In this document: positions 14,967 through 31,655 of the stretch, piece after piece
How the letters are laid out: each line of letters begins with the position of its first letter
Numbering within the stretch: the stretch's first letter is position 1
Assembly (NCBI RefSeq): GCF_900108095.1
Contig: NZ_FNWL01000002.1
Location: forward strand, 1,082,691 to 1,146,690
DNA length: 64,000 nt
Direction of reading: 5' to 3'
Origin: Natronorubrum sediminis
GTDB taxonomy: Archaea; Halobacteriota; Halobacteria; Halobacteriales; Natrialbaceae
Made by a program: the position numbers and the translations under genes
The notes under the pieces: model-generated
The model's database searches: none
What the model was told of the DNA's origin: nothing
What the model saw: the letters and a program-made list of their open reading frames with translations, nothing else

Positions 14967-17930
14967 ATGAGCAAAGACTACATCGAGGTGCGAGGTGCAG
15001 AGGAGCACAACCTCAAAGACCTCGACGTCACGGTTCCCCGCGAGGAGTTCACCGTCGTCACCGGCCTCTCGGGATCGGGGAAATCCTCGCTGGCGTTCGA
15101 AACGATCTACGCCGAAGGACAGCGTCGCTACATCGAGAGTCTCTCGGCGTACGCCCGGAACTTCCTCGGACAGATGGACAAACCGCAGGTCGAGACCGTC
15201 GAAGGACTCTCGCCGGCGATCTCGATCGATCAGAAGAACGCCGCGAACAACCCCCGTTCGACGGTGGGGACCGTCACGGAACTCCACGACTATCTCCGTC
15301 TCCTCTACGCCCGCGTCGGCACCCCCCACTGTCCCGACTGCGGCCGCGAAGTCGGCGAGCAGTCCGCCCAGAACATGGTCGAGCGCATCCTCGAGTTACC
15401 CGAGGGAACGCGAGCGAAACTCGCCGCACCCGTCGTTCGCGACCAGAAGGGTGCCTTCGAGGACCTCTTCGAGGAACTCGTCTCGGAGGGGTACTCCCGC
15501 GTCGAAATCGACGGCGAGGAGTACGACCTTACCCTCGACGACCCCGACCTGGACGAGAACTTCGACCACACCGTCGATGTCGTCGTCGACCGCGTGAAGG
15601 TAGACACCGAGGCCCGTCCGCGGATCATCGACAGCGTCGAAACGGCGCTCGAGGAAGCCGAGGGCGTCCTCAAGGTCATTCTGCCCGACGCACCCGAGGA
15701 GGTCGCGTCCGATCTGGGCGAGGCGGCCCGCCGAACGGGTGCGCTTGGCGACGAGACCGAGGAAGACGACCGGTTCGTCGTCGAGTTCTCGAAGGACCTC
15801 GCGTGTACTCACTGCGGGATCGACGTGCCCGAGATCGAGACGCGTTCGTTCTCCTTCAACTCACCTCACGGTGCCTGTCCGGAGTGTGAGGGACTCGGCG
15901 AGACGAAAGAGATCGACGAAGGACTGGTCATCCAGGACGAATCCAAGTCGCTCAAGCACGTCTTCGAGCCCTGGAGCTACAACCGCTCGTACTACCAGAC
16001 GCGACTCGACGCCGTCGCCGAGCACTTCGACCTCTCGCTGTCGACGCCGTTCGAAGACCTCGAGGAGGATACCCAGCAGGCCTTCCTCTACGGCACCAGC
16101 GACAAGGTGACCTTCGAGCGAAGTACCCGAAACGGCACCCGACGCAAGCAAAAACGCTTCGAGGGCGTCATTCCGAACCTCGAGCGTCGATACCTCGAGA
16201 CCGACTCCGATTCGACCCGCGAGCACATCGAGGACTACATGTCGGCGACGGAGTGTCCGTCCTGTGACGGCACCCGTCTCAAGGCGGCGAGTCGGGCCGT
16301 GTTCATCGACGGGACCGCAATCACCGAGATCAACGGGCTGAGCATCGGCGACGCCTTGGCCCACTTCGAGTCGATGGAAGCCGACCTCACGGAGCGCGAG
16401 AAAGTCATCGCCGAGGAGATTTTGAAGGAGATTCGGGCCCGCCTCGGCTTCATGGTCGAAGTCGGCCTCGAGTACCTCACCCTCGACCGGGAAGCCGCGA
16501 CCCTCTCGGGTGGTGAGAGCCAGCGTATTCGGCTCGCGACGCAGATCGGGTCCGGGCTGGTCGGGGTGCTCTACGTCTTGGACGAGCCCTCGATCGGCCT
16601 CCACCAGCGGGACAACGACCGACTGCTCGATACCTTAGAAGAGCTTCGAGACATCGGAAACACCCTCCTCGTCGTCGAACACGACGAAGAGACGATGCGC
16701 CGTGCGGACAACGTCATCGACATGGGCCCCGGTCCGGGCAAACGCGGCGGCGAGGTCGTCGCCAATGGCTCCGTCGAGGACGTCAAAGACTGTGAGGAGT
16801 CCATCACCGGCGACTACCTCTCCGGCCGCCGGCAGATTCCGGTTCCGGACGAACGCCGCGACCCGGCGGGCGCGCTGACCATCCGCGGCGCTCGCCAGCA
16901 CAACTTAGCCGACCTCGACGTGGACATTCCACTGGGCAACTTTACCGCGATTACAGGCGTCTCTGGCTCCGGCAAATCGACGCTCATGCACGAGGTGTTC
17001 TACAAGGGCCTCGCCCGCCAGATGAACGACAACACGAGCGTCATTCCGGGCGACCACGACGGCCTCGAGGGCCTCGAGGAGATCGAAACCGTCCGACTGA
17101 TCGACCAGTCTCCGATCGGTCGCACACCTCGATCGAATCCGGCCACCTACACCAACGTCTTCGACTACATCCGCGACCTGTTCGCCGAGACGAAACTCGC
17201 GAAACAGCGTGGCTACGAGAAGGGACGCTTCTCGTTCAACGTCAAGGGCGGGCGCTGCGAGGAGTGTGGCGGCCAAGGAACCGTCAAAATCGAGATGAAC
17301 TTCCTCAGCGACGTCTACGTCCCCTGTGAGGAGTGTGACGGCGCGCGCTACAACGACGCGACCCTCGACGTCACCTACAAGGGCAAGACGATCGCCGACG
17401 TGCTCGAGATGGAGGTCGACGAGGCCTACGAGTTCTTCGAGTCGAACTCCCAGATCCGTCGCCGGCTGAAACTCCTGAAGGACGTCGGACTCGACTACAT
17501 GACCCTCGGCCAGCCGTCGACGACGCTTTCCGGTGGTGAGGCCCAGCGGATCAAGCTGGCCGAAGAACTCGGGAAGAAGGACACCGGCGAGACGCTGTAC
17601 TTGCTCGACGAGCCGACGACCGGACTGCACCACGAGGACGAACGAAAACTCATCGAGGTGCTCCACCGGCTGACCGACAACGGCAACACCGTCGTCGTCA
17701 TCGAACACGAACTCGACCTCGTGAAGAACGCCGACCACATCATCGACCTCGGCCCCGAAGGCGGCGAACACGGCGGCGAACTCGTCGCGACGGGAACGCC
17801 GGAAGAAGTCGCCCGACTCGAGGACTCACACACCGGTCGGTACCTGCGCGACCTGCTGCCGAAAATCGACCTCGATGGCCCACGCGGCGAGCGCGTCGAA
17901 CCCGTGACGGCGCCGATGGACGACGACTGA
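14967..17930 (+). CDS. uvrA: excinuclease ABC subunit UvrA
   Basis: The 987-residue protein is a full-length UvrA, the damage-recognition ATPase of nucleotide excision repair that loads UvrB onto DNA. It has two ABC modules. The first Walker A is GLSGSGKS (33-40) and the second, GVSGSGKST, is near residue 664. Zinc-binding CxxC pairs occur near 120 (CPDC), at CTHC with CPEC, and at CEEC with CEEC. Two signature segments (LSGGE) precede Walker B LDEP motifs. Bacterial-type UvrABC was acquired by haloarchaea and is now general there. No uvrB or uvrC lies in the window. Confidence 0.98.
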   Translation: MSKDYIEVRGAEEHNLKDLDVTVPREEFTVVTGLSGSGKSSLAFETIYAEGQRRYIESLSAYARNFLGQMDKPQVETVEGLSPAISIDQKNAANNPRSTVGTVTELHDYLRLLYARVGTPHCPDCGREVGEQSAQNMVERILELPEGTRAKLAAPVVRDQKGAFEDLFEELVSEGYSRVEIDGEEYDLTLDDPDLDENFDHTVDVVVDRVKVDTEARPRIIDSVETALEEAEGVLKVILPDAPEEVASDLGEAARRTGALGDETEEDDRFVVEFSKDLACTHCGIDVPEIETRSFSFNSPHGACPECEGLGETKEIDEGLVIQDESKSLKHVFEPWSYNRSYYQTRLDAVAEHFDLSLSTPFEDLEEDTQQAFLYGTSDKVTFERSTRNGTRRKQKRFEGVIPNLERRYLETDSDSTREHIEDYMSATECPSCDGTRLKAASRAVFIDGTAITEINGLSIGDALAHFESMEADLTEREKVIAEEILKEIRARLGFMVEVGLEYLTLDREAATLSGGESQRIRLATQIGSGLVGVLYVLDEPSIGLHQRDNDRLLDTLEELRDIGNTLLVVEHDEETMRRADNVIDMGPGPGKRGGEVVANGSVEDVKDCEESITGDYLSGRRQIPVPDERRDPAGALTIRGARQHNLADLDVDIPLGNFTAITGVSGSGKSTLMHEVFYKGLARQMNDNTSVIPGDHDGLEGLEEIETVRLIDQSPIGRTPRSNPATYTNVFDYIRDLFAETKLAKQRGYEKGRFSFNVKGGRCEECGGQGTVKIEMNFLSDVYVPCEECDGARYNDATLDVTYKGKTIADVLEMEVDEAYEFFESNSQIRRRLKLLKDVGLDYMTLGQPSTTLSGGEAQRIKLAEELGKKDTGETLYLLDEPTTGLHHEDERKLIEVLHRLTDNGNTVVVIEHELDLVKNADHIIDLGPEGGEHGGELVATGTPEEVARLEDSHTGRYLRDLLPKIDLDGPRGERVEPVTAPMDDD

Positions 17931-20709: not shown

Positions 20710-21114
20710 TTACTCGGGACTCGGCGTCTGCGCGTGAGAGAGGTACGAAGCCAGATCGGACGTCGTCAGAATGCCGATGACACCCTCGTCGTCGTCCACG
20801 ATCGGGAGGTGATGGAATCCCTCTTCGACCATCGTGTCGGCGGCGTCGCGAATACTCTCCTGTGCGCGTCCCGTCGTGACGTTCTGGCTCATGTACGTCG
20901 ACACCGGCGTCTGATCCTTCGGCTTGCGCTCGGCGACGATCTGCACGAAGTCGGTCGTCGTCAGGATTCCCTCGAGTCCCCCGTCGTCGTCGACGACGAT
21001 GACCGAACCGATCTCGTTCGCGAGCATCTCCTGTGCGGCATCTTCGACCAGCGTCTCCGGCGAAACGGTCGTCAGTGACGACGACATGACGCGAGCGACG
21101 AAAATATCGTCCAT
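20710..21114 (-). CDS. tandem CBS-domain protein
   Basis: The 134-residue cytoplasmic protein is made of two CBS modules (about 8-60 and 72-130), each ending with a GILTTxDL-type strand-helix. CBS pairs bind adenine nucleotides or S-adenosyl compounds and act as energy or ionic-strength sensors. There is no fused effector domain. It is divergent from the split AddB operon, with 144 bp between the two starts carrying a TATA-like box for each. Confidence 0.9.
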   Translation of the reverse strand: MDDIFVARVMSSSLTTVSPETLVEDAAQEMLANEIGSVIVVDDDGGLEGILTTTDFVQIVAERKPKDQTPVSTYMSQNVTTGRAQESIRDAADTMVEEGFHHLPIVDDDEGVIGILTTSDLASYLSHAQTPSPE

Positions 21115-21218: not shown

Positions 21219-21227
21219 GTTTATATA
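21219..21227 (+). promoter_or_regulatory. TATA-like box of the helicase-nuclease operon
   Basis: GTTTATATA occurs 32-40 nt before the ATG at 21259 and is the only AT-rich stretch in the region. It is the likely promoter of the three overlapping repair genes, giving a leader of about 10 nt or less. Confidence 0.55.
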
Positions 21228-21258: not shown

Positions 21259-23577
21259 ATGGCGTCTCAGGAACCCACCCTCCAGGGGACGTGTACGCTC
21301 CTTGCTGAACCCTGCTCGAGCGACGCTCTCTTCGACCACATCGCGACGGAGTACGCCGCACTCGTAGACGAGTACGAGCCACAGAACGTGTTGGTCCTAA
21401 AGCGCCACCCGGCGGGCCTCGAGAACCTCACCGAAGCGCTCGCAGCCGCCTCGACAACGGACGACACGCCGAAATCACCGCGCGTCGAGTCGCTGCCCGA
21501 ACACGCCTCGAAAGTGCTCGAGGAGTACGACCCGACGCTGGATCGACTCGAGTACGAAGAACGGATCGAACTCATCTCGCTCGTGATTGACGGCGCGAGT
21601 CGCGACATCCCGGCGTACCTCGAGCGCGCAAGTGACCACGAGAGTTTCGCTCGTGACGTTGGCCAGTTGCTGCTCGAGGCGACCCGCCAACAGTTGGGAC
21701 TCACGGACGTCGAAGCCGAGGAGCCACGCGAGTCGCTGGCGTTTCTCTACGCGATGAACGACCGGTTCCACGCGGTACTCGAGGAGCGAGGGTACGTCGA
21801 GCGTGCAGACGTGGTTCCACAAACGGTCGATCTGCTCGAGGACGACGTCGAGGGGCTGCAAACGCGAGTAACGGACTCGATCGATGCCGTCCTCGCCGTC
21901 GAGTTCGAGGAGTACCGCCAACTCGATCGGCGGTATCTCGCCGCGCTTTCCGAAGACACTGCACTCGTCTGTCTGGGCGAGCGCCACGCCAGCGTCGAGC
22001 GGACTCGAGTCGAACCGGGTTGTATCGAAGATCACGTCGGGGACGGACTGACGGTCGAGATTCTCGATCCGCGACGCGATTGCAGGGAGACCATGCCCGC
22101 CAGCCGTTCGCCACAGCAGGCGGTCAGTCGCTTCCTCGCGACTGGCGCGTGTCCCCAGGAGTCGGCTGACGCCGTGTCTCGATCTGAGGGAACGGAACTC
22201 GAATCGGCGACCGCCGATGGCGTGTTCCGAATTCGAACGCAGACGGCAGCCGAGCAGGTGAGCACCGTCGCGAGCGAAATTCAGGCGCTTCGCGATCGAC
22301 ACGGCTGGGGATTCGAGAAGTTCGCAGTCGCCGTCCCCCGAATCGAACGGGTCCCCGAAACCAGACGACGGCTTCGAGAGGCAGGGATTCCGACGGCGAC
22401 GATCGGGACGCCCTCGCTCGCGGAGGACCCAGTGGTACACGAACTCTACGCGTTCGTGACGGTACAGTGTAAACGAGACCGCCACTCCGGCCGCGTCGAT
22501 GCCGAACTCGCTACGGAAAATGTTCACGAACGGACGGGTTCCGACCAGCGTGCTCGAGGTCCGATCGATCCACGGGATCCGACGACGGAGCCGAGTGACA
22601 TGGCTCTCGAGCGACTGCGTGCTCGAGTCGACGGACTCTCCCTCGAGACCGTCGAGTCGTGTTCACACTCGAGGGTCTCCCGCTCGCTCGAGCGCTGGAT
22701 TCGACGGACGGATCTCAAGGGTCGAATCACACGCGAGGAGAAGTGGGTCGACGCCCGCGAACAGTTCGCCAGTCTCCGGCGCGTGCTCGAGATTGCTCGC
22801 TTCGTCGAGGAGACCGACCTGGTCGGTCCCGACTGGCAGGGCTTGCGGCGGATGCTCCGCCGGACGATCCAGTACGACGCACCCTACGTCCACGCTGTCG
22901 ACGCCCAGCCACCGACCGGCGGCGTCACGGTCTGTGCGATCGACGATCTGAAGTACGACACGCGAGAGGCAGTCTTCGTGCTCGATCTGATCGACGACGC
23001 CTATCCCGGCGAGCAGTTTCTCACGCAACTGTTTCCGACGGCGTGGGTTCGGGAGATGCCGACGTATCCGGCCGTAACCAACCCGTCCGTCGAGGACGTC
23101 ACGGCGACGTTCGCCAGCGCGGATCCGGATGGCATTGGCGATCCGTTCGAAGCCTACCACGCCCAACGCTCGCGTCGACGCCTCGCACTCGGAGCTCGCG
23201 CGGCACGGTCGGCGCTCTACTGTTGTTCGTTCGAACGCGGTGCGGGCGGCCTCGATCGGACACACGACGAATCTCGGTACCTGCAACTGCTCGAGTCCGC
23301 ACGCGGTAGTGATCTCCCGACCGTCGAACCCGAGACGACGGCAGCGATCCACGGCGAGCAAAACGCACTCGAGGCCCTGCTCGCCCAGCCACACGGCGAA
23401 CTCGAGCGAATCGTTCGGGAGGCAAGTACGGGCGGCGACGCCGACCTCGCCACCACGGAAGAACTGTTCGAAGAGATCGCACTGGTCCTCGCACACGAGG
23501 AAATCGACGACGGACTGGCCGATGCCGTCCGCTCACAGTTCGAGTTCGCCGCCGGCGAGGTGATTCGTAATGAGTGA
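21259..23577 (+). CDS. AddB/RecC-like protein, inactivated helicase scaffold
   Basis: The 772-residue protein resembles the helicase-like part of AddB. An N-terminal strand-helix-strand sits where a Walker A loop would be, but the sequence is LLAEPCSSDALFD, with no GxxxxGK. Motif-IV-like FAVAVPRIE is followed by RRRLREAGIP (about 350-390). A motif-V-like strand near 557-585 has DLKYDTREAVFVLDL, and a motif-VI-like helix near 640-658 has LGARAARSALY. ATP hydrolysis is therefore unlikely. In RecBCD and AddAB, degenerate partners of this kind split duplex DNA or scan for Chi. Its stop overlaps the next start by 8 nt. The start is the ATG after the TATA box. Confidence 0.7.
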   Translation: MASQEPTLQGTCTLLAEPCSSDALFDHIATEYAALVDEYEPQNVLVLKRHPAGLENLTEALAAASTTDDTPKSPRVESLPEHASKVLEEYDPTLDRLEYEERIELISLVIDGASRDIPAYLERASDHESFARDVGQLLLEATRQQLGLTDVEAEEPRESLAFLYAMNDRFHAVLEERGYVERADVVPQTVDLLEDDVEGLQTRVTDSIDAVLAVEFEEYRQLDRRYLAALSEDTALVCLGERHASVERTRVEPGCIEDHVGDGLTVEILDPRRDCRETMPASRSPQQAVSRFLATGACPQESADAVSRSEGTELESATADGVFRIRTQTAAEQVSTVASEIQALRDRHGWGFEKFAVAVPRIERVPETRRRLREAGIPTATIGTPSLAEDPVVHELYAFVTVQCKRDRHSGRVDAELATENVHERTGSDQRARGPIDPRDPTTEPSDMALERLRARVDGLSLETVESCSHSRVSRSLERWIRRTDLKGRITREEKWVDAREQFASLRRVLEIARFVEETDLVGPDWQGLRRMLRRTIQYDAPYVHAVDAQPPTGGVTVCAIDDLKYDTREAVFVLDLIDDAYPGEQFLTQLFPTAWVREMPTYPAVTNPSVEDVTATFASADPDGIGDPFEAYHAQRSRRRLALGARAARSALYCCSFERGAGGLDRTHDESRYLQLLESARGSDLPTVEPETTAAIHGEQNALEALLAQPHGELERIVREASTGGDADLATTEELFEEIALVLAHEEIDDGLADAVRSQFEFAAGEVIRNE

Positions 23578-24637
23578 CAGTCCAGATACGCCGACGCCGA
23601 CGCAGACCGGGTCACCAGCCAGTATCGAGCGTATCCACGTCGACGGACTCACGACCTCCGTTCGCTGTCCACGCAAGTACGAGTTAGCCCACGAACACGA
23701 CCTCGAGTCGACCAGCGACGAGACGACGGCTGAGGACCGAGTCGATCTCCTCAGAGGTTCGATCTGTGCAGCGTTACGAACCGGAGACACCGATCCGGAT
23801 CGGCTCCTCGACGCTGCCACGACCGCGCTCGAGGAACGCTGGAACGACCACGACGAACGGTTTCACTCGCGCGAACAACGCCGCCACGTGCGCCGAGTAC
23901 TCGAAGCGACGCTCGAGGCGTACGTCGACCGGATCGGCGTCGAACACGCCGAAGGGATCGTCCGGCTCACGAGCGAGACGAACGGCGAGGTGATCGGACC
24001 GACCCTCCCGCTCTCGAGTCGCGTGTCGCTGCCAAAATCGGAAGCGGGTGACGCGAGCGTGGCACTCGAGTCGACCGTCGACTACCTCACCGCGGACGGA
24101 CGTTCCGTCGTCGGCGTTCGGTTCGTCCCGACGCTTGCCCCGCTGGGTCGCCTTCGGTACCGACCCGAGTGGGAGGGAGATATCGCAGACCAGTTCCACG
24201 ATCACTTCGATCCCGAAGCGGACGTCTTCGAACCGGGATTCGTCGGTTCGCTGTTCGAGACGGCTGGCGTCGTCGACGGGCTTCGCACCCGCTGTGAGCA
24301 GTTAGGGCTCGAGGACCGAACGTGTCGGTACGTACAGATACCGGTCGCCGATCGCTCGCAGACGACGGTAAACTGGGTCCAGGAGTCGGTCGAGGCGAGT
24401 ATCGAGCCACACGATCTGACCGATCGCTACATCGACCACCACACGTACGGGATGACGCACGAACATCGAAATCGGGCGGTCGACGACCGACTCGCGGCCG
24501 CCGTAGCGCGAATCGTCGACGGGAAATTCGAACCGGAAACGCGCTGGGAATCGATCTCGAGTGCGTCCTGTCCGGAGTGTGGCTACTCGGTCTGCTGTCA
24601 GGAGTATCTCGCCTCGGAGGTTCGATTCGATGGGTGA
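23570..24637 (+). CDS. Fe-S nuclease-fold protein like the AddB C-terminal domain, probably catalytically dead
   Basis: The 355-residue protein has a cysteine in VRCPRKYELAHE (C33) and a C-terminal C334-x2-C337-x5-C343 set. This matches the split four-cysteine pattern that holds a 4Fe-4S cluster in AddB and Cas4 nucleases. The PD-(D/E)xK core should lie around 155-185. There the strand STVDYLTADG keeps an acidic residue, but the following strand reads VVGVRFVP where E-x-K or DYK is expected, so cleavage is doubtful. With the preceding gene it would amount to 1,127 residues, close to a whole AddB. Both ends overlap neighbours by 8 nt. Confidence 0.7.
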   Translation: MSDSPDTPTPTQTGSPASIERIHVDGLTTSVRCPRKYELAHEHDLESTSDETTAEDRVDLLRGSICAALRTGDTDPDRLLDAATTALEERWNDHDERFHSREQRRHVRRVLEATLEAYVDRIGVEHAEGIVRLTSETNGEVIGPTLPLSSRVSLPKSEAGDASVALESTVDYLTADGRSVVGVRFVPTLAPLGRLRYRPEWEGDIADQFHDHFDPEADVFEPGFVGSLFETAGVVDGLRTRCEQLGLEDRTCRYVQIPVADRSQTTVNWVQESVEASIEPHDLTDRYIDHHTYGMTHEHRNRAVDDRLAAAVARIVDGKFEPETRWESISSASCPECGYSVCCQEYLASEVRFDG

Positions 24638-27600
24638 GAAACCTCGCGAACCGCGGGGCAATCAACAGGACGTGATCGATAGCACGGCCGCCTGTACCTC
24701 CGTCGATGCCGGTGCAGGGACGGGGAAGACGACTACGATGCTCATGCGACTCGAGCAGGCGATCGAACGAGGCGACGTCGATCCCGCGGACGTGCTGGTG
24801 TTGACGTTCGCGAACGAAGCCGCGAGCAGTATTCGAAGTGCGGTCAGTGATCGCCTCGACCCGGAGACGGCCGCCGCGATCGACATCAATACCTACCACT
24901 CGTTTTGTTACGGGCTGGTCCGCGAGTACGCCTACTACCTCGGCTACTCACCCGAGTTCGACGTCGTCACCGAGCGGACGCGACGCCGGATCGTGAGTCG
25001 CTTGCTCGCCGAGAACGAGTACGACTTCGCGACGACGATGGGACGTGGTGAGCCGTCACCCGACGACGTCACCGCTGCCGTCGACCGGTTCATCCAGTCG
25101 ATGAGTCAGGAGGATATCACCCCGGCCCAACTGGACGACCAGCTTCCCGCCGTCCGAACGCTCGAGCTCTGTCACGAGTTCGTCCTCTGGCTCGAGGAAA
25201 CCGCCGATGAGCGCCTCTCGTTCGACAACGAGGCACTGTTGTACTTCAACCGAGACGAACACCTCGAGGGGGCAGAATCCGCACTCGTCGACTACGGGAA
25301 GCTGATCACGTTCTGTCGCGAAAAGATCGCGGAAGCCCCCGCCGCGTTTCGCGGCGACGAGTTCGTCCGCCAGATCGATCACTACCTCACGCTCCTCCAA
25401 CAGAGCGTGACGAACACGATCGACGCGCTCACACTCGAGGAGCCGACGACGAAACAGCTCCCGCGAGCGCTCTTTGGAAACGAAATCTGGCGCGGCGCGA
25501 CTGGTCGACTCGAGCAAAGTCCCTTCGGCAGGCTAAAGCACTACGTCGAGTTCGTGCGTCTCGCGCGCCACTACACGGCCGTCTACGCCGATTACCACGC
25601 GACTCTCGAGGACGAGCGAATGTTGGACTTCGACGAACTCGTGCGGACGGCGACGACGCTGGTTACCGACGACGGCGTCGCAGACGAGATCACGAGCCAG
25701 TGGACCCAGGTCTACTGCGACGAATTTCAGGACACAGACAGGACCCAGTTCCGACTCATCACCGAACTCACGGACGGCCCCGATCGGCCCGATTTGCTCG
25801 CGATCGGCGACAAGGACCAGTCGATCTACGGCTGGCGTGGCACCGACCGCGAGGGCCTCGACAGACTTGCGACGGTCTACGACGACCACGAATCCTACGA
25901 ACTCGAACTCAACTTCCGCTCGAAACAGGAGATTTTGGCCCTAACGAACCACTGCGACTACGGCCCACAGGCCTCGAAGACGCTCCGAGAAGCCGACAGA
26001 GGAGCGTCGTCAGCACCGGCGGACGAACCCGACGCTGACTCTCTCTCCGAACCTGCACTCGAGCACGACCGTGACCTCGAATCGCCGACCGGCGGCGAGA
26101 GCCGTGGCGACGGGTCGGCCGTCGACCGCGTCGTCAAAGTCGAGAGCGACGAGATCGATCGATCGACGGCCGAACAGGTCGGGACGACGGTCTCGAGGCT
26201 GTTGAACGGCGACGCCGACGGCGTGCCACAGCGCTCGCTCGAGGACATCGCGGTAATCGTCCGGACGAATCGACACGCACAGGCCGTCGCCGCGGAGTTG
26301 AACACCCGTCAACTCCCCTACGAAATATCCGGCTCGGCCTACGGGGAGGTGTCGCCGGGACTGCAAACGCTCCTGTCGTATTTCCGCGTACTCGTCGATC
26401 CTGCCGCAGACGCCCACTTGCGCCGGGTGTTGCTCTACCGATATCGGGTGAGCGAAGCCGACCTCGCGACGTTGCAGCGTCGAGACGGAACGCTGTACGA
26501 CGCCGTGATGGGGCTCGAGTCAGATGCTGATGCCGGTGACGGCGCAGACGTCGATGGTGACGCAGACGGCGATGATGACGCAGACGCCGGTGCTGATACG
26601 CGCCTCGAGAGCAGCCTCGAACGACCCGACCGCGTCCACAACGCACGGACCCACCTCGAGGAACTCGAGACGTTGCGGGACGTCTACCCGCTCTCCGGGT
26701 TCGTCGGCCGATTTCGGGAGGTGACGCGACTCGAGTGGTACTGCACGAGCGACGAGCGCGACGAACTCGGTCGCCTCGAGCGTTTCGTCGAGTCGTACAC
26801 CGCAGATTCGGTGGTCCAGACGGTGACGCCGGCGTTCGTCGACGCACTCGAGCGCACGCTCCAAAGTGGCTCGAGCGATCGGACGCGGGGCACCCAATCT
26901 ACGGATTCCATCGACGTGATGACGGTCCACCAGGCGAAAGGCCTCGAGTTCGACACCGTGTTGGTGCCGTATCTCTCCGACGAGGAGTGGTGCGTCGAAC
27001 GTGATTACGCCCGACGGGCACGCTACCAGCTACTGGCGGCGACGCTCAACGACGACATCGACTCGCCGCTGTGTGCGGATCTCGCGGCCGAAACGGTCGG
27101 CGAGGAGTGGCGAGTCCTGCACGTCGCACTCACTCGAGCGGAGAATCACCTCTTCGTCTTCGGTTCGACGTACGACTACGACGGCGAGGACGAGGAGCTC
27201 GGCGCGTCGACCGCCGATGCGTGTTTAACGGACGGCCTCGAGTGGTCGGTCACCGGCGAGCAAATGACCCTCTGGGAATCGCTCACCGAGAGTTTCGAAC
27301 GCGTTAGGGAGTCGTTTCCCGAGACAGTCGCCGACAGGACCGACGAAATCGCCGACTCTGCCCAGCGAACGCCTGGAACGATCACCTACTACTCCGGCTA
27401 CGACGACCGGACCGCCGAGCCACTCGAGACCCAGGCGGCCATCGAAACGGTTCACGACCTCGGGCGGATGCTCCGGGACGGCACGTTGTTGCCAGCAGCC
27501 GACGCGGCGAGTGCGACTGGCGACGGTGGTGTGAGTGGAACTGGCGAAACCGGTAGTCGAACGGACGACGTTCGAGCGACTGAAACAGCAGCCGAAACGC

Positions 27601-28553
27601 CGAGTTCGAAGACGGACCGACGAGTGCCGAGCGAACGGCGGCTTTCGTCGCTGACTGGTGAAACCGTTCGATTCCCCGTCGACACGCTCGCTAACGCGAC
27701 CGACGTCCCCGCCGCCTTGCGCCACAGCTACACCTCGCTTGCGACCCACGAGACGTGTCCGCGAAAGCACTACCTCGATCACGTCGTTCACGCGATCGGC
27801 GATTCGTCCGTTCGGACACTCGAGGATGGGACACCCCTCGAGTCTTACTCTGAAGACGACGGGACCGTATCTGCCGATACCGCCGTCCCACGCCTCGTCG
27901 GGACGATTTTCCACGACGTTGCAGAGGAGGCGTTCTATCGAAACGACGCCACTCGAGACGACTGGCGAGAAGTCGCGATCCGGCAACTGACGGCGAGGGG
28001 CGTCCTCGAGCATCGAGAGCGCGTGCTGGAGTGTGTGGATCGGTACTTCGACGCGAGTGCGCCCGCGTTCGACGATCCGGTTCACGAGTGGGAGCCACTC
28101 GCCGCGGAAGTGCCGTTTACCCTCGCTGACGTGCCGAACGTCCGCGGTGACGTGGTCGGATTCATCGACTCGGTGCGACGGACCCCAGAGGGTGACCTCG
28201 TCGTGCTCGACTACAAGGCGACAGCCGAACGAATTTCGCCGTCCGAGGCGTCCCAACTGGCGTTGTACGTCCGAGCGTGTGAGCAGGCGTTCGACGAGCC
28301 AGTGACGGCTGCTGGCTACGTTTACGTCGGTCCCGTCGACGGCCCACGCGTCGATCTCTTCATGCCCGAGGAACTCCCCCCGTGGTCGAGCGTTCACCAG
28401 ACGCTTGAGGCGGCTGACGACCCCTCGTTCGCCGAAACGACGACCGGCGAGCACTGCCAGTACTGTCCACATCGGTCGCTTGGCTGTGCACCAGAGGAGT
28501 TCGTCGACGACCAATTGGAGAGTGGATTGGCCGAGTCGACAGGGGACGATTGA
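24630..28553 (+). CDS. AddA-like UvrD-type helicase fused to RecB-type nuclease
   Basis: The 1,307-residue protein has a complete SF1A helicase: Walker A GAGTGKT (28-34), DEFQD near 362, GDKDQSIYGWRG near 392, NFRSKQEI, MTVHQAKGLEFD near 763 and VALTRAENHLF near 831. The C-terminal nuclease starts at TCPRKHYL (about 1042), has GFID then LVVLDYKA (about 1176-1197) and QLALYVRA, and ends with C-x2-C-x6-C near 1275-1286. The last set and the earlier Cys could hold an iron-sulfur cluster, which classical AddA lacks. An Asp/Ala/Gly insert sits near 630-660. The protein should unwind and degrade broken duplex ends. The start overlaps the previous gene. Confidence 0.88.
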   Translation: MGEKPREPRGNQQDVIDSTAACTSVDAGAGTGKTTTMLMRLEQAIERGDVDPADVLVLTFANEAASSIRSAVSDRLDPETAAAIDINTYHSFCYGLVREYAYYLGYSPEFDVVTERTRRRIVSRLLAENEYDFATTMGRGEPSPDDVTAAVDRFIQSMSQEDITPAQLDDQLPAVRTLELCHEFVLWLEETADERLSFDNEALLYFNRDEHLEGAESALVDYGKLITFCREKIAEAPAAFRGDEFVRQIDHYLTLLQQSVTNTIDALTLEEPTTKQLPRALFGNEIWRGATGRLEQSPFGRLKHYVEFVRLARHYTAVYADYHATLEDERMLDFDELVRTATTLVTDDGVADEITSQWTQVYCDEFQDTDRTQFRLITELTDGPDRPDLLAIGDKDQSIYGWRGTDREGLDRLATVYDDHESYELELNFRSKQEILALTNHCDYGPQASKTLREADRGASSAPADEPDADSLSEPALEHDRDLESPTGGESRGDGSAVDRVVKVESDEIDRSTAEQVGTTVSRLLNGDADGVPQRSLEDIAVIVRTNRHAQAVAAELNTRQLPYEISGSAYGEVSPGLQTLLSYFRVLVDPAADAHLRRVLLYRYRVSEADLATLQRRDGTLYDAVMGLESDADAGDGADVDGDADGDDDADAGADTRLESSLERPDRVHNARTHLEELETLRDVYPLSGFVGRFREVTRLEWYCTSDERDELGRLERFVESYTADSVVQTVTPAFVDALERTLQSGSSDRTRGTQSTDSIDVMTVHQAKGLEFDTVLVPYLSDEEWCVERDYARRARYQLLAATLNDDIDSPLCADLAAETVGEEWRVLHVALTRAENHLFVFGSTYDYDGEDEELGASTADACLTDGLEWSVTGEQMTLWESLTESFERVRESFPETVADRTDEIADSAQRTPGTITYYSGYDDRTAEPLETQAAIETVHDLGRMLRDGTLLPAADAASATGDGGVSGTGETGSRTDDVRATETAAETPSSKTDRRVPSERRLSSLTGETVRFPVDTLANATDVPAALRHSYTSLATHETCPRKHYLDHVVHAIGDSSVRTLEDGTPLESYSEDDGTVSADTAVPRLVGTIFHDVAEEAFYRNDATRDDWREVAIRQLTARGVLEHRERVLECVDRYFDASAPAFDDPVHEWEPLAAEVPFTLADVPNVRGDVVGFIDSVRRTPEGDLVVLDYKATAERISPSEASQLALYVRACEQAFDEPVTAAGYVYVGPVDGPRVDLFMPEELPPWSSVHQTLEAADDPSFAETTTGEHCQYCPHRSLGCAPEEFVDDQLESGLAESTGDD

Positions 28554-28599: not shown

Positions 28600-29019
28600 T
28601 CACAGCGACATGAGCACGACGGCGAGGACGGCGAACACGATTCCGAGACCGTTTCTGACAGTCAGTGACTCCTCGAGCGCAACGATACCGATGATCGAGC
28701 TCACTGCAATGAACAGCCCGTAAATTGGAACGACAACGCTGACGGGACCGAGTTCGAGTGCGCGGTAGTACGCTAGGAGCCCGATCGCGAGGAGGGCACC
28801 CCAGGCGACGATGTGGGGCGTCTTCGGGTGCGAGAGATACGGGCGAGGGGAGACACCCTGGTAGAGCAACAGTCCACCGAGGAGCCCGAGCATGATGGTG
28901 TTCGAGAGGAAGACCGCCATCGTACTCGGAACCGTCTCCATCGCGACCTTGAGCAATGGAGCGACCAGACTGTACGCGACGAACGCGATCACCGAGAGCG
29001 CGAGGTACTCTCGTTCCAT
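28600..29019 (-). CDS. half-size EamA/DMT transporter subunit B
   Basis: The 139-residue protein has five hydrophobic helices and one EamA unit, with the conserved LGPVSVVVPIYGLF and ALEESLTVR near its end. Typical EamA carriers have ten helices made by duplication, so this is half length and should dimerise. The gene starts inside the stop of its partner (TAATG, 1-nt overlap), so the two are translationally coupled and probably form a heterodimer. The substrate is unknown; family members export metabolites or amino acids. Confidence 0.85.
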   Translation of the reverse strand: MEREYLALSVIAFVAYSLVAPLLKVAMETVPSTMAVFLSNTIMLGLLGGLLLYQGVSPRPYLSHPKTPHIVAWGALLAIGLLAYYRALELGPVSVVVPIYGLFIAVSSIIGIVALEESLTVRNGLGIVFAVLAVVLMSL

Positions 29020-29438
29020 TAGCTCTCACCCGCAGTGAGGACGATCGCGAGGACCGCACAGCCGATTCCGGCCGCCCGTGTCACCGACATCGACTCCTCG
29101 AGAAAGAGGATTCCCAACACCGAACTGCCGACGATGAACATGCCGAATATCGGCACGACGACGCTAACGGGCCCGGTCTCGAGTGCGGCCGTGTACGCCA
29201 AAATCCCCGCCGTGAGAAACGCGCCGGCGATGTAGATGTAACCGGCCTCGAGCGAGACCACGAGCGATGGATCGGCACCGCCAGTCACGATCAGTACGCT
29301 GCTCGCAATCGCGAGAAAGACGAGCGTCGAGAGGAACAATCCCGGCGTTGCCGGAACGTCTTGCATCACGACGCTCGTGAGCGGCGCGACGAACGAGTAC
29401 GCGAGGAGTGCTATCAGAACCCACAGTAAATACTCCAT
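29019..29438 (-). CDS. half-size EamA/DMT transporter subunit A
   Basis: This is a 139-residue, five-helix protein and clear paralogue of its downstream neighbour. It has the matching ETGPVSVVVPIFGMF and LFLEESMSV segments. Equal length and 1-nt overlap suggest a recent tandem duplication that became an obligate pair, as in dual small-multidrug-resistance-type pumps. Upstream is a short AT-containing gap before the divergent Nudix gene. Confidence 0.85.
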   Translation of the reverse strand: MEYLLWVLIALLAYSFVAPLTSVVMQDVPATPGLFLSTLVFLAIASSVLIVTGGADPSLVVSLEAGYIYIAGAFLTAGILAYTAALETGPVSVVVPIFGMFIVGSSVLGILFLEESMSVTRAAGIGCAVLAIVLTAGES

Positions 29439-30198: not shown

Positions 30199-30786
30199 AT
30201 GACTGATCTTACCCGCCGACGAACGATTGCTGCAGCGGCAGTTGGAACTGTTGGCGCAATCGCCGGCTGTGTCGACGATCTCGCGAATGGAGACGACGAC
30301 ACTGACGACGCCGGTAGCGGTGACGACGACGCGGACGACGGCAACGGAAACGGAGGGGACCAAGAAGTCATCGACGAGGATATCGACGAAATCTCGGCAG
30401 ACGGCGACGTCGAAGTGCAGGCCGATATCGAAATCGACGGTCCGATCGACGCCGACGGCGACGTCTACCTCGAGGAAGATGCAGACGTAGACGGAGACGT
30501 CGAGGCAGGCGGTGCTGTAACGACCGAACCCGATGTCGATATCGACGGCGGTATCGATGCCGGTAGCGACGTCGACCTCGGTGAAGACACCGATGTCGAT
30601 GGCGATATCACCGCAGGCGGGTCCGTGACGACCGATGCTGACGTCGATATCGACGGTGATGTCGACGCAGATGGCGACGTCGAACTCGGCCCCGACAACG
30701 ACGTCGACGGCGACGTCAGCGGTGAAACGGTCGAACAAGGCGACGGCACCGACGTTCAAGGTGACGTCGAGGAAGCAGACGGCTAA
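30199..30786 (+). CDS. Tat lipoprotein with beta-helix-like acidic repeats
   Basis: The 195-residue protein has a twin-arginine signal (TRRRTIAAAAVG) and a lipobox ending AIAGC at C24, then an Asp-rich linker to about residue 55. After that come three 36-residue repeats (58-93, 94-129, 130-165) and a partial fourth, built from short turns such as DVDIDGDV and AGGSVTT. Hydrophobic V and I recur every second or third residue, as in bactofilin-type or hexapeptide beta-helices. Two 18-residue coils per repeat fit the 36-residue period. It is probably an extracellular, lipid-anchored rod. The next gene shares its signal-peptide region. Confidence 0.8.
   Translation: MTDLTRRRTIAAAAVGTVGAIAGCVDDLANGDDDTDDAGSGDDDADDGNGNGGDQEVIDEDIDEISADGDVEVQADIEIDGPIDADGDVYLEEDADVDGDVEAGGAVTTEPDVDIDGGIDAGSDVDLGEDTDVDGDITAGGSVTTDADVDIDGDVDADGDVELGPDNDVDGDVSGETVEQGDGTDVQGDVEEADG
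30370..30693 (+). repeat. three in-frame 108-bp repeats
   Basis: Units at 30370-30477, 30478-30585 and 30586-30693 encode 36 residues each. The last two are closest, with most positions identical at protein level; the first is more diverged. This suggests growth by tandem duplication of a two-coil structural unit. Confidence 0.75.
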
Positions 30787-31148: not shown

Positions 31149-31655
31149 ATGACAGAGACCACTCGTCGCCGAACGATCGTCACAGTCGTCGTCGGAACTA
31201 TCGGAACACTCGCAGGCTGTGTAGACACAACGTTCGACGACGATCCCGACGAGGAGGGCGAAACCGAGGACAATATCTTTGGAGACGACGCTGGCGACGT
31301 CGGTAACGGAAACGAATCTGACAGTGACGACGATGAGGACGATGACGGTGAAGATGGTGAAGACGGCGAAGACGATGATGACGAGGACGAAGACGACGAT
31401 GAGAGCGATGACGAGAGCGAGGACGATGATGACGATGATGACGACGACGATGATGAGGATGACGATGATGAGGATGACGATGATGAGGATGACGACGATG
31501 ACGACGACGATGATGAGGATGACGACGATGATGAGGATGACGACGATGATGAGGATGACGACGATGACGACGATGACGACGAGGACGACGACGATGACGA
31601 CGATGACGACGACGATGATGACGACGACGAGGACGACGACGATGATGACGACTAG
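31149..31655 (+). CDS. Tat lipoprotein with a long poly-Asp/Glu tail
   Basis: The 168-residue protein starts with a twin-arginine signal (TTRRRTIVTVVVGTIGTLAGC), closely similar to the lipoprotein at 30199, followed by CVD after the lipobox. From about residue 57 to the end it is almost only Asp and Glu with a few Ser and Gly, with no hydrophobic core. It cannot fold as a globule and is probably an anchored, highly charged brush outside the membrane. It may bind cations or water, but there is no direct evidence. The start ATG at 31149 places the signal correctly. Confidence 0.75.
   Translation: MTETTRRRTIVTVVVGTIGTLAGCVDTTFDDDPDEEGETEDNIFGDDAGDVGNGNESDSDDDEDDDGEDGEDGEDDDDEDEDDDESDDESEDDDDDDDDDDDEDDDDEDDDDEDDDDDDDDDEDDDDDEDDDDDEDDDDDDDDDEDDDDDDDDDDDDDDDEDDDDDDD
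31318..31652 (+). repeat. GAY/GAR triplet-repeat tract
   Basis: About 335 bp consist almost entirely of GAC, GAT and GAG triplets in frame, including repeated 15-bp blocks such as GATGAGGATGACGAT. The tract encodes the acidic tail. It is prone to replication slippage, so length differences between strains are expected. Confidence 0.85.

Follow-up and report, generated by a model that had tools for sequence, protein, structure and literature searches.

The question raised by a 64,000-nucleotide (nt) chromosomal stretch of Natronorubrum sediminis (contig positions 1082691-1146690; called the window here, at its full length) is whether three overlapping genes in it, g1, g2 and g3, encode one machine for processing DNA ends. 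In AddAB, AdnAB and RecBCD, a motor-nuclease is joined with a helicase-shaped partner into a complex with internal channels, which engages a DNA end, separates the two strands and cuts them; in bacteria the RecBCD class serves both repair and defence. The literature we examined presents all three as bacterial machines, and a review of Haloferax repair describes end resection in H. volcanii through Mre11-Rad50 and names no RecBCD-class enzyme (PMC7776575). Our analysis indicates, with a probability of roughly 0.72, that the three proteins are subunits of one AddAB/AdnAB-class DNA-end helicase-nuclease, with the AddB-type subunit made as two polypeptides. The locus is laid out as follows.

21259-23577, + strand: g1, AddB N-terminal-like degenerate superfamily 1 (SF1) helicase scaffold without Walker A, 772 amino acids (aa)
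23570-24637, + strand: g2, AddB C-terminal-like PD-(D/E)XK fold with a four-cysteine (Cys4) set, catalytically degenerate here, 355 aa
24630-28553, + strand: g3, UvrD-family SF1A motor with an intact PD-(D/E)XK nuclease carrying a Cys4 set, 1307 aa
23570-23577, + strand: overlap of the g1 stop and g2 start, 8 nt, ATGAGTGA
24630-24637, + strand: overlap of the g2 stop and g3 start, 8 nt, ATGGGTGA
21220-21227, + strand: TATA-like box TTTATATA, 32-39 nt ahead of the g1 start codon

An earlier note on this DNA had described 8-nt overlaps at both junctions, a single TATA box ahead of the trio and a total of 1,127 residues for g1 and g2. The overlaps were recovered at exactly its coordinates, the sum holds (772 + 355), and the box is a putative one read from sequence, with AT-rich boxes at the equivalent spot upstream of g1 in most near relatives inspected. 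Results across relatives refer to 109 copies analysed in detail or, for the comparison of clades, to 59 non-redundant trios.

Against Pfam, NCBIfam and PADLOC, g1 gave nothing above noise. As the earlier note had read it, g1 lacks Walker A and keeps degenerate helicase motifs IV-VI; a simple pattern found no Walker A near the N terminus in any of the 109 g1 proteins, and motifs II (EFEE), III, IV, V and VI (RRRLALGARAA) were recognisable in degenerate form. When a 21-row g1 profile was compared with the whole PDB, the best match was Bacillus subtilis AddB (expect value, E, 9.7e-7), followed by UvrD/PcrA. An AlphaFold2 model built on a 59-row alignment (predicted local distance difference test, pLDDT, 84.9) aligned through residues 9-762 on B. 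subtilis AddB 2-768 (Z 22.6-23.2, 610-624 residues, root-mean-square deviation about 6) and fitted AdnA 22-783 equally well. The modelled fold thus appears AddB-like over residues 9-762, where the earlier note would have counted a fold unlike AddB/RecC against its proposal.

The second protein matched PDDEXK_1 (E 6e-6). Its sequence alone gave no significant match in the PDB, for which a structure or profiles were required. The g2 model (59-row alignment, pLDDT 90.7) aligned through residues 12-353 on AddB 776-1138 (Z 15.0, 280 residues) at the top of the list, Foldseek on its own likewise ranked AddB first, and the fit to AdnA 784-1039 was equal to that of AddB. Because g1 aligns on AddB 2-768 and g2 on AddB 776-1138, the two proteins tile AddB end to end, and the break between them falls at the boundary of the AddB helicase-like part and its nuclease. 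The residues of g2 that bear on its Fe-S (iron-sulphur) and catalytic status are listed below.

23666-23668, + strand: g2 C33 codon, first candidate Fe-S ligand, in CPRKYELAH
24569-24598, + strand: g2 C334-x2-C337-x5-C343, remaining candidate Fe-S ligands
24080-24082, + strand: g2 D171, the sole Asp retained at a catalytic position
24119-24127, + strand: g2 R184-F185-V186, the destroyed nuclease site, where active relatives have D-Y-K

The split cysteine set that the earlier note had recognised in g2 was conserved, with all four cysteines kept in 58/59 non-redundant homologues. In bacterial AddB, the corresponding cluster serves structure and DNA-end binding, according to a part of PMC4176176 that cites Yeeles 2009 and to PMC4824097, and the retention of cysteines in g2 where catalysis is lost agrees with that role.

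g3 combines the motor with a nuclease, and its main features are these.

24660-27158, + strand: g3 helicase region, UvrD_N to UvrD_C
24711-24731, + strand: g3 Walker A, GAGTGKT
27726-28478, + strand: g3 PDDEXK_1 nuclease domain
28167-28169, + strand: g3 catalytic D1180
28209-28217, + strand: g3 catalytic D1194-Y-K1196
27756-27758, + strand: g3 C1043, first Cys of the Cys4 set
28455-28487, + strand: g3 C1276-x2-C1279-x6-C1286

Strong matches were obtained to UvrD-helicase, UvrD_C and PDDEXK_1, and the nuclease residues H-D-D-K, Walker A and the four cysteines were intact in 59/59 non-redundant trios, in line with the full SF1A motor and intact nuclease that had been claimed for g3 (a simple pattern detected Walker A in 107 of the 109 copies). 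The g3 profile matched PcrA/UvrD first in the PDB, then AdnB (4e-61), AddA (3e-56) and RecB (1e-37), and the nuclease segment as a single sequence had no significant PDB match. The Cys4 set of g3 (C1043/C1276/C1279/C1286) had been overlooked before. The proposal of an AddB split into a scaffold and an Fe-S module is therefore largely right in its structural part, since g1 and g2 have AddB-like folds and tile AddB, but needs correcting on two counts: the nuclease of g2 is degenerate in the window, and g3 carries the Fe-S signature as well as g2. Within g3 (window positions ~26520-26610) lies an insert of acidic, low-complexity sequence, DADAGDGADVDGDADGDDDADAGAD, where the alignment consensus of relatives is gapped.

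By profile comparison, g1 also matched the g3 helicase (E 1.1e-12) with motifs in register, pairing EFQDTD of g3 with EFEEYRQLD of g1 and TVHQAKGLEF with CAIDDLKYDTREAVF, and g2 matched the g3 nuclease (E 3.4e-9), with LDYKAT of g3 opposite VRFVPT of g2. Such homology, of g1 with one half of g3 and of g2 with the other, would also be expected if the likeness to AddAB were convergent, an archaeal UvrD-PD-(D/E)XK fusion having been duplicated and one copy having degenerated and broken into g1 and g2. The resemblance of g3 to the UvrD-Cas4 fusion branch (PMC5704561) points the same way, as do single-chain UvrD-PD-(D/E)XK proteins in the same phylum, outside the class, that match the g3, g1 and g2 profiles in order. 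We consider this origin doubtful: the best PDB profile match of g1 is AddB and not a UvrD monomer, its structural match to AddB reaches residue 762, past the UvrD core, and the genes for AddA, AddB, AdnA and AdnB all share such ancestry anyway. Matches of the g1 profile outside Halobacteria were considered as fused AddB and rejected, being single-chain UvrD-PD-(D/E)XK proteins recognised via the shared helicase core. At two loci outside Halobacteria (L180:4018-10512 and L181:4240-10666), a single-chain UvrD-PD-(D/E)XK-Cys4 protein is closely followed by a 1090-aa frame, which may be a partner.

We then assessed whether the three genes behave as one unit. Among 61 relatives, g1 was present in 32 genomes and g2 in the identical 32, of which 30 also gave g3 under a strict cut-off; the remaining two carry a more distant form of the trio in which g3 was read directly. 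The genes were adjacent in all 109 copies, in constant order and nearly always with 8- or 4-nt overlaps, which argues that the trio is one unit whose recurrence is beyond chance. No fused g1-g2 reading frame occurred in the 109 copies, so that the AddB equivalent is two genes throughout. Across the class, g1 was found in 140/391 haloarchaeal genomes and 51/86 genera (89/101 genomes in Natrialbaceae and 51/290 in other families, counted from the genome list); the expectation that the genes co-occur across haloarchaea thus held wherever they are present, but they are not general. No relatives of the trio were detected in phage genomes or viral contigs, leaving a viral origin unsupported at the sensitivity of the search, and at pattern sensitivity no trio was found in any genome outside haloarchaea.

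The g1/g2 overlap was 8 nt in 72 of the 109 copies, 4 nt in 33 and other in 4. The frame of g2 with respect to that of g1 differs between these two junction types, which favours reinitiation over a frameshift fusion; a programmed frameshift joining g1 and g2 was rejected, since the 8-nt and 4-nt junctions would need different shifts. Termination-reinitiation at the overlaps probably couples translation of the three genes, yielding balanced subunits.

Several observations weigh against an AddAB/AdnAB-class machine. g3 scored 129 bits against the curated addA cut-off of 707.65 bits (TIGR02785), which it did not pass, and was also far under the curated recB cut-off. Plain UvrD helicases aligned on the g1 model at Z 26, but only over ~410-530 residues, to about residue 690. 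AdnA accounts for the split as well as AddB does and, being matched equally, is not separable from it by fold. Most haloarchaea outside Natrialbaceae are without the trio. All 59 sampled Halobacteria had NurA-family (PF09376) matches, as did the control, Haloferax volcanii, from which HerA and NurA are absent according to a review (PMC7776575); the match in the genome of the window lies at contig positions 1201102-1202046. With NurA universal in the sample, the trio is unlikely to be the only end-resection enzyme, and the idea that it replaces a missing NurA was rejected on the same count. Finally, the existence of monomeric UvrD-Cas4-like enzymes would suit an arrangement in which the three proteins are co-transcribed but work separately, with g3 a helicase-nuclease in its own right and g1 and g2 regulating or scaffolding some other process. 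The strict co-occurrence of the genes, their coupled overlaps and the exact tiling of AddB by g1 and g2 make this very improbable. AddAB-like working of the trio is the best-supported reading.

The family comprises two clades that differ in g2. The H/D/D/K residues of g2 were kept in 13/59 trios (one of them without H), which form a two-nuclease clade, and the active site was destroyed in 46/59, the window included (D-Y-K to R-F-V), with the cysteines retained. In a maximum-likelihood g3 tree, a single change separates the intact and degenerate states, with the root on a very long branch. The simpler, tentative reading of their order is that the 46 have lost catalysis, because the other PD-(D/E)XK proteins examined (g3 and the outgroup) appear active by sequence.

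The genomic surroundings of the clades differ as well. In the window, two upstream genes recur at other loci of its clade.

20710-21114, - strand: CBS-domain gene, divergent upstream neighbour of g1, kept in 38/45 loci of the window's clade
14967-17930, + strand: uvrA, with a homologue at the same offset in 17/45 loci of the window's clade

The uvrA gene thus lies ~6 kilobases (kb) upstream of the trio in 17 of the 45 degenerate-g2 Natrialbaceae loci, and NUDIX, FolP and tRNA-synthetase genes are further neighbours in this clade. PADLOC 'mads' matches near it were rejected as evidence of defence, as they come from UvrA and other ABC-type ATPases. Downstream of the trio, two abutting 139-aa EamA-like half-transporters (window positions 28600-29438, - strand) are likely a paired small multidrug-type exporter, and neighbouring lipoprotein-like genes (30199-30786 and 31149-31655, both + strand) have similar signal sequences; the first contains regular repeats of DVDIDGDVDADG type.

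Trios of the two-nuclease clade lie on megaplasmids and in defence islands, where the surroundings vary from locus to locus and defence genes abound. D-Y-K is present in each of the six plasmid copies with a g2 that was read. Neighbours in this clade include a long Argonaute with a gene of the phospholipase D (PLD) family, type II and type III-like restriction genes (methylases, helicases), BREX-5 pglZ, Mrr-type endonucleases and McrB-like ATPases. The Argonaute (888-895 aa) and PLD genes lie directly upstream of two-nuclease trios, the pair ~5 kb upstream of g1 (also at L204:4151-8995), and in six loci from different genera (L137, L141, L142, L147, L150, L153) the PLD stop codon is 5 nt ahead of g1. 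Defence by the Argonaute-PLD pair has been demonstrated in haloarchaea as the APAP system, and the authors of that work remark only on 'a helicase-encoding gene' near some operons (PMC11442185). The ago-PLD genes and the trio possibly form one operon of an APAP system plus a split AddAB. In ten two-nuclease loci (e.g. L131:8028-9731), an AAA ATPase of 557-568 aa with DUF4143 (PADLOC PDC-S01-like) is divergent upstream of the trio or its Argonaute operon and may be a regulator. On a Natrinema zhouii plasmid (L205:4209-8454), a 'DNA repair exonuclease' and 'AAA family ATPase' pair, Mre11/Rad50-like by name, is just upstream of a two-nuclease trio.

These contexts bear on what the machine is for. 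One account makes the trio primarily an antiviral effector throughout, activated by ends or a signal and destroying foreign DNA, with the chromosomal Natrialbaceae form a domesticated defence system and not a repair enzyme. It draws on the two-nuclease clade's megaplasmids with Argonaute and PLD, restriction genes, BREX-5 pglZ and Mrr- and McrB-like genes, on the patchy presence across the class and on the described defence association of UvrD-Cas4 fusions (PMC5704561). We regard it as unlikely, given that the window's clade sits in conserved housekeeping DNA (CBS 38/45, uvrA 17/45, FolP, NUDIX) with no specific defence genes and that 89 of the 101 Natrialbaceae genomes keep a copy. Instead, we favour separate roles. 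For the window's clade, a chromosomal gene order that is stably kept and a presence in nearly the whole family point to a housekeeping role in DNA-end processing, and for its sister clade we favour defence through destruction of foreign DNA. The earlier term 'end-resection machine' would describe one possible use, and the two-nuclease clade, tied as it is to antiviral islands, is no less likely to degrade foreign DNA. A narrower proposal, which we think quite improbable, has the sister-clade trio working within an antiviral pathway of Argonaute and PLD: the split AddAB would unwind and degrade invader DNA and supply the Argonaute with single strands as guides or targets, the window's clade being a domesticated single-nuclease version for chromosomal end processing.

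Within an AddAB/AdnAB-class machine, g3 would serve as motor, pulling one strand as a 3'-5' helicase of the SF1A type and cutting the emerging strand with its C-terminal nuclease; this polarity and strand assignment are presumed from the class. As in AddB/RecC, g1 may act as a motor-less scaffold that splits the duplex and guides a strand. g2 is predicted to be a nuclease-fold cap docked on g1, presumably stapled by an Fe-S cluster and helping to hold the broken end, so that g1 and g2 would re-form the AddB subunit non-covalently and the Fe-S fold of g2 could have been retained for stability and end binding. With the cutting activity of g2 presumably lost in the window's clade, a single nuclease, g3, would process DNA there, much as in RecBC. 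H-D-D-K is kept by g2 of the sister clade, where both strands could be cut, as in AddAB.

We found no description of the trio as an AddAB relative, or of AddAB in haloarchaea, in the literature searched, which is weak evidence given the extent of that library. PLSDB/RefSeq annotations name g1 'DNA helicase UvrD', g2 'PD-(D/E)XK nuclease family protein' and g3 'ATP-dependent DNA helicase', indicating that the genes were catalogued but not recognised as one machine. A haloarchaeal family with one- and two-nuclease forms is a natural experiment on the purpose of the second nuclease and its Fe-S fold, the two-nuclease trios link the AddAB/AdnAB class to Argonaute-based defence, and the trio supplies genes testable in haloarchaeal hosts.

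Among known systems, AddAB of the B. subtilis type (PDB 3u44, 3u4q, 4ceh, 4cei, 4cej) resembles the trio in that an SF1A motor-nuclease is joined by a helicase-shaped partner ending in an Fe-S nuclease domain. g3 is AddA-like (SF1A helicase, Walker A, C-terminal PD-(D/E)XK nuclease), g1 and g2 together provide the helicase-shaped domains followed by a nuclease domain, g2 has the apparent four-cysteine iron-staple signature (one N-terminal C plus C-x2-C-x5-C), and the sister clade has two intact nucleases. AddB, however, is a single chain where the trio has two polypeptides, AddAB has two active nuclease sites where g2 of the window is dead (R184/V186 for D/K), and the trio is archaeal, with a Cys4 set also in g3. 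We know of no haloarchaeal Chi. The mycobacterial AdnAB (PDB 6ppj, 6ppr, 6ppu, 7sjr, 9np6) is alike in that g1 and g2 fit AdnA as well as AddB and that AdnB is the heterodimer subunit on which g3 has its best score; AdnA and AdnB are each one chain with motor and nuclease, unlike the split g1 and g2, with no Walker A in g1 and, in the window's clade, a catalytically degenerate g2. RecBCD shares a RecB-like motor-nuclease, a motor-less helicase-shaped scaffold and, in the window's clade, one active nuclease (a working analogy to RecBC), but RecC is one chain, g2 retains Fe-S cysteines and is a PD-(D/E)XK fold rather than a helicase, and the operon has no RecD-type SF1B motor.

More distant systems share parts of the trio. 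g3 alone has the domain order of UvrD-Cas4 fusions, a single-chain UvrD helicase with a Cas4-like Fe-S nuclease, and part of the trio family shares their defence-associated contexts; the fusions are stand-alone or in two-gene pairs, without the g1 scaffold and g2 partner (PMC5704561). Six sister-clade trios follow an ago-PLD operon, but the trio is outside APAP as described (PMC11442185) and most copies, including that of the window, are without it. From HerA-NurA the trio differs in having no FtsK-HerA ATPase or NurA domains in a domain scan, with NurA encoded elsewhere in the genome. Gabija pairs the UvrD helicase GajB with the OLD-family partner GajA; g3 matches GajB models solely via the helicase core, and g1 and g2 are without any PADLOC match. 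Because AddB is a single chain, g3 falls short of the curated addA cut-off and the window's clade has one active nuclease in place of two, the trio is not AddAB proper; it is a variant of the AddAB/AdnAB class, three-gene and archaeal, with one- and two-nuclease forms.

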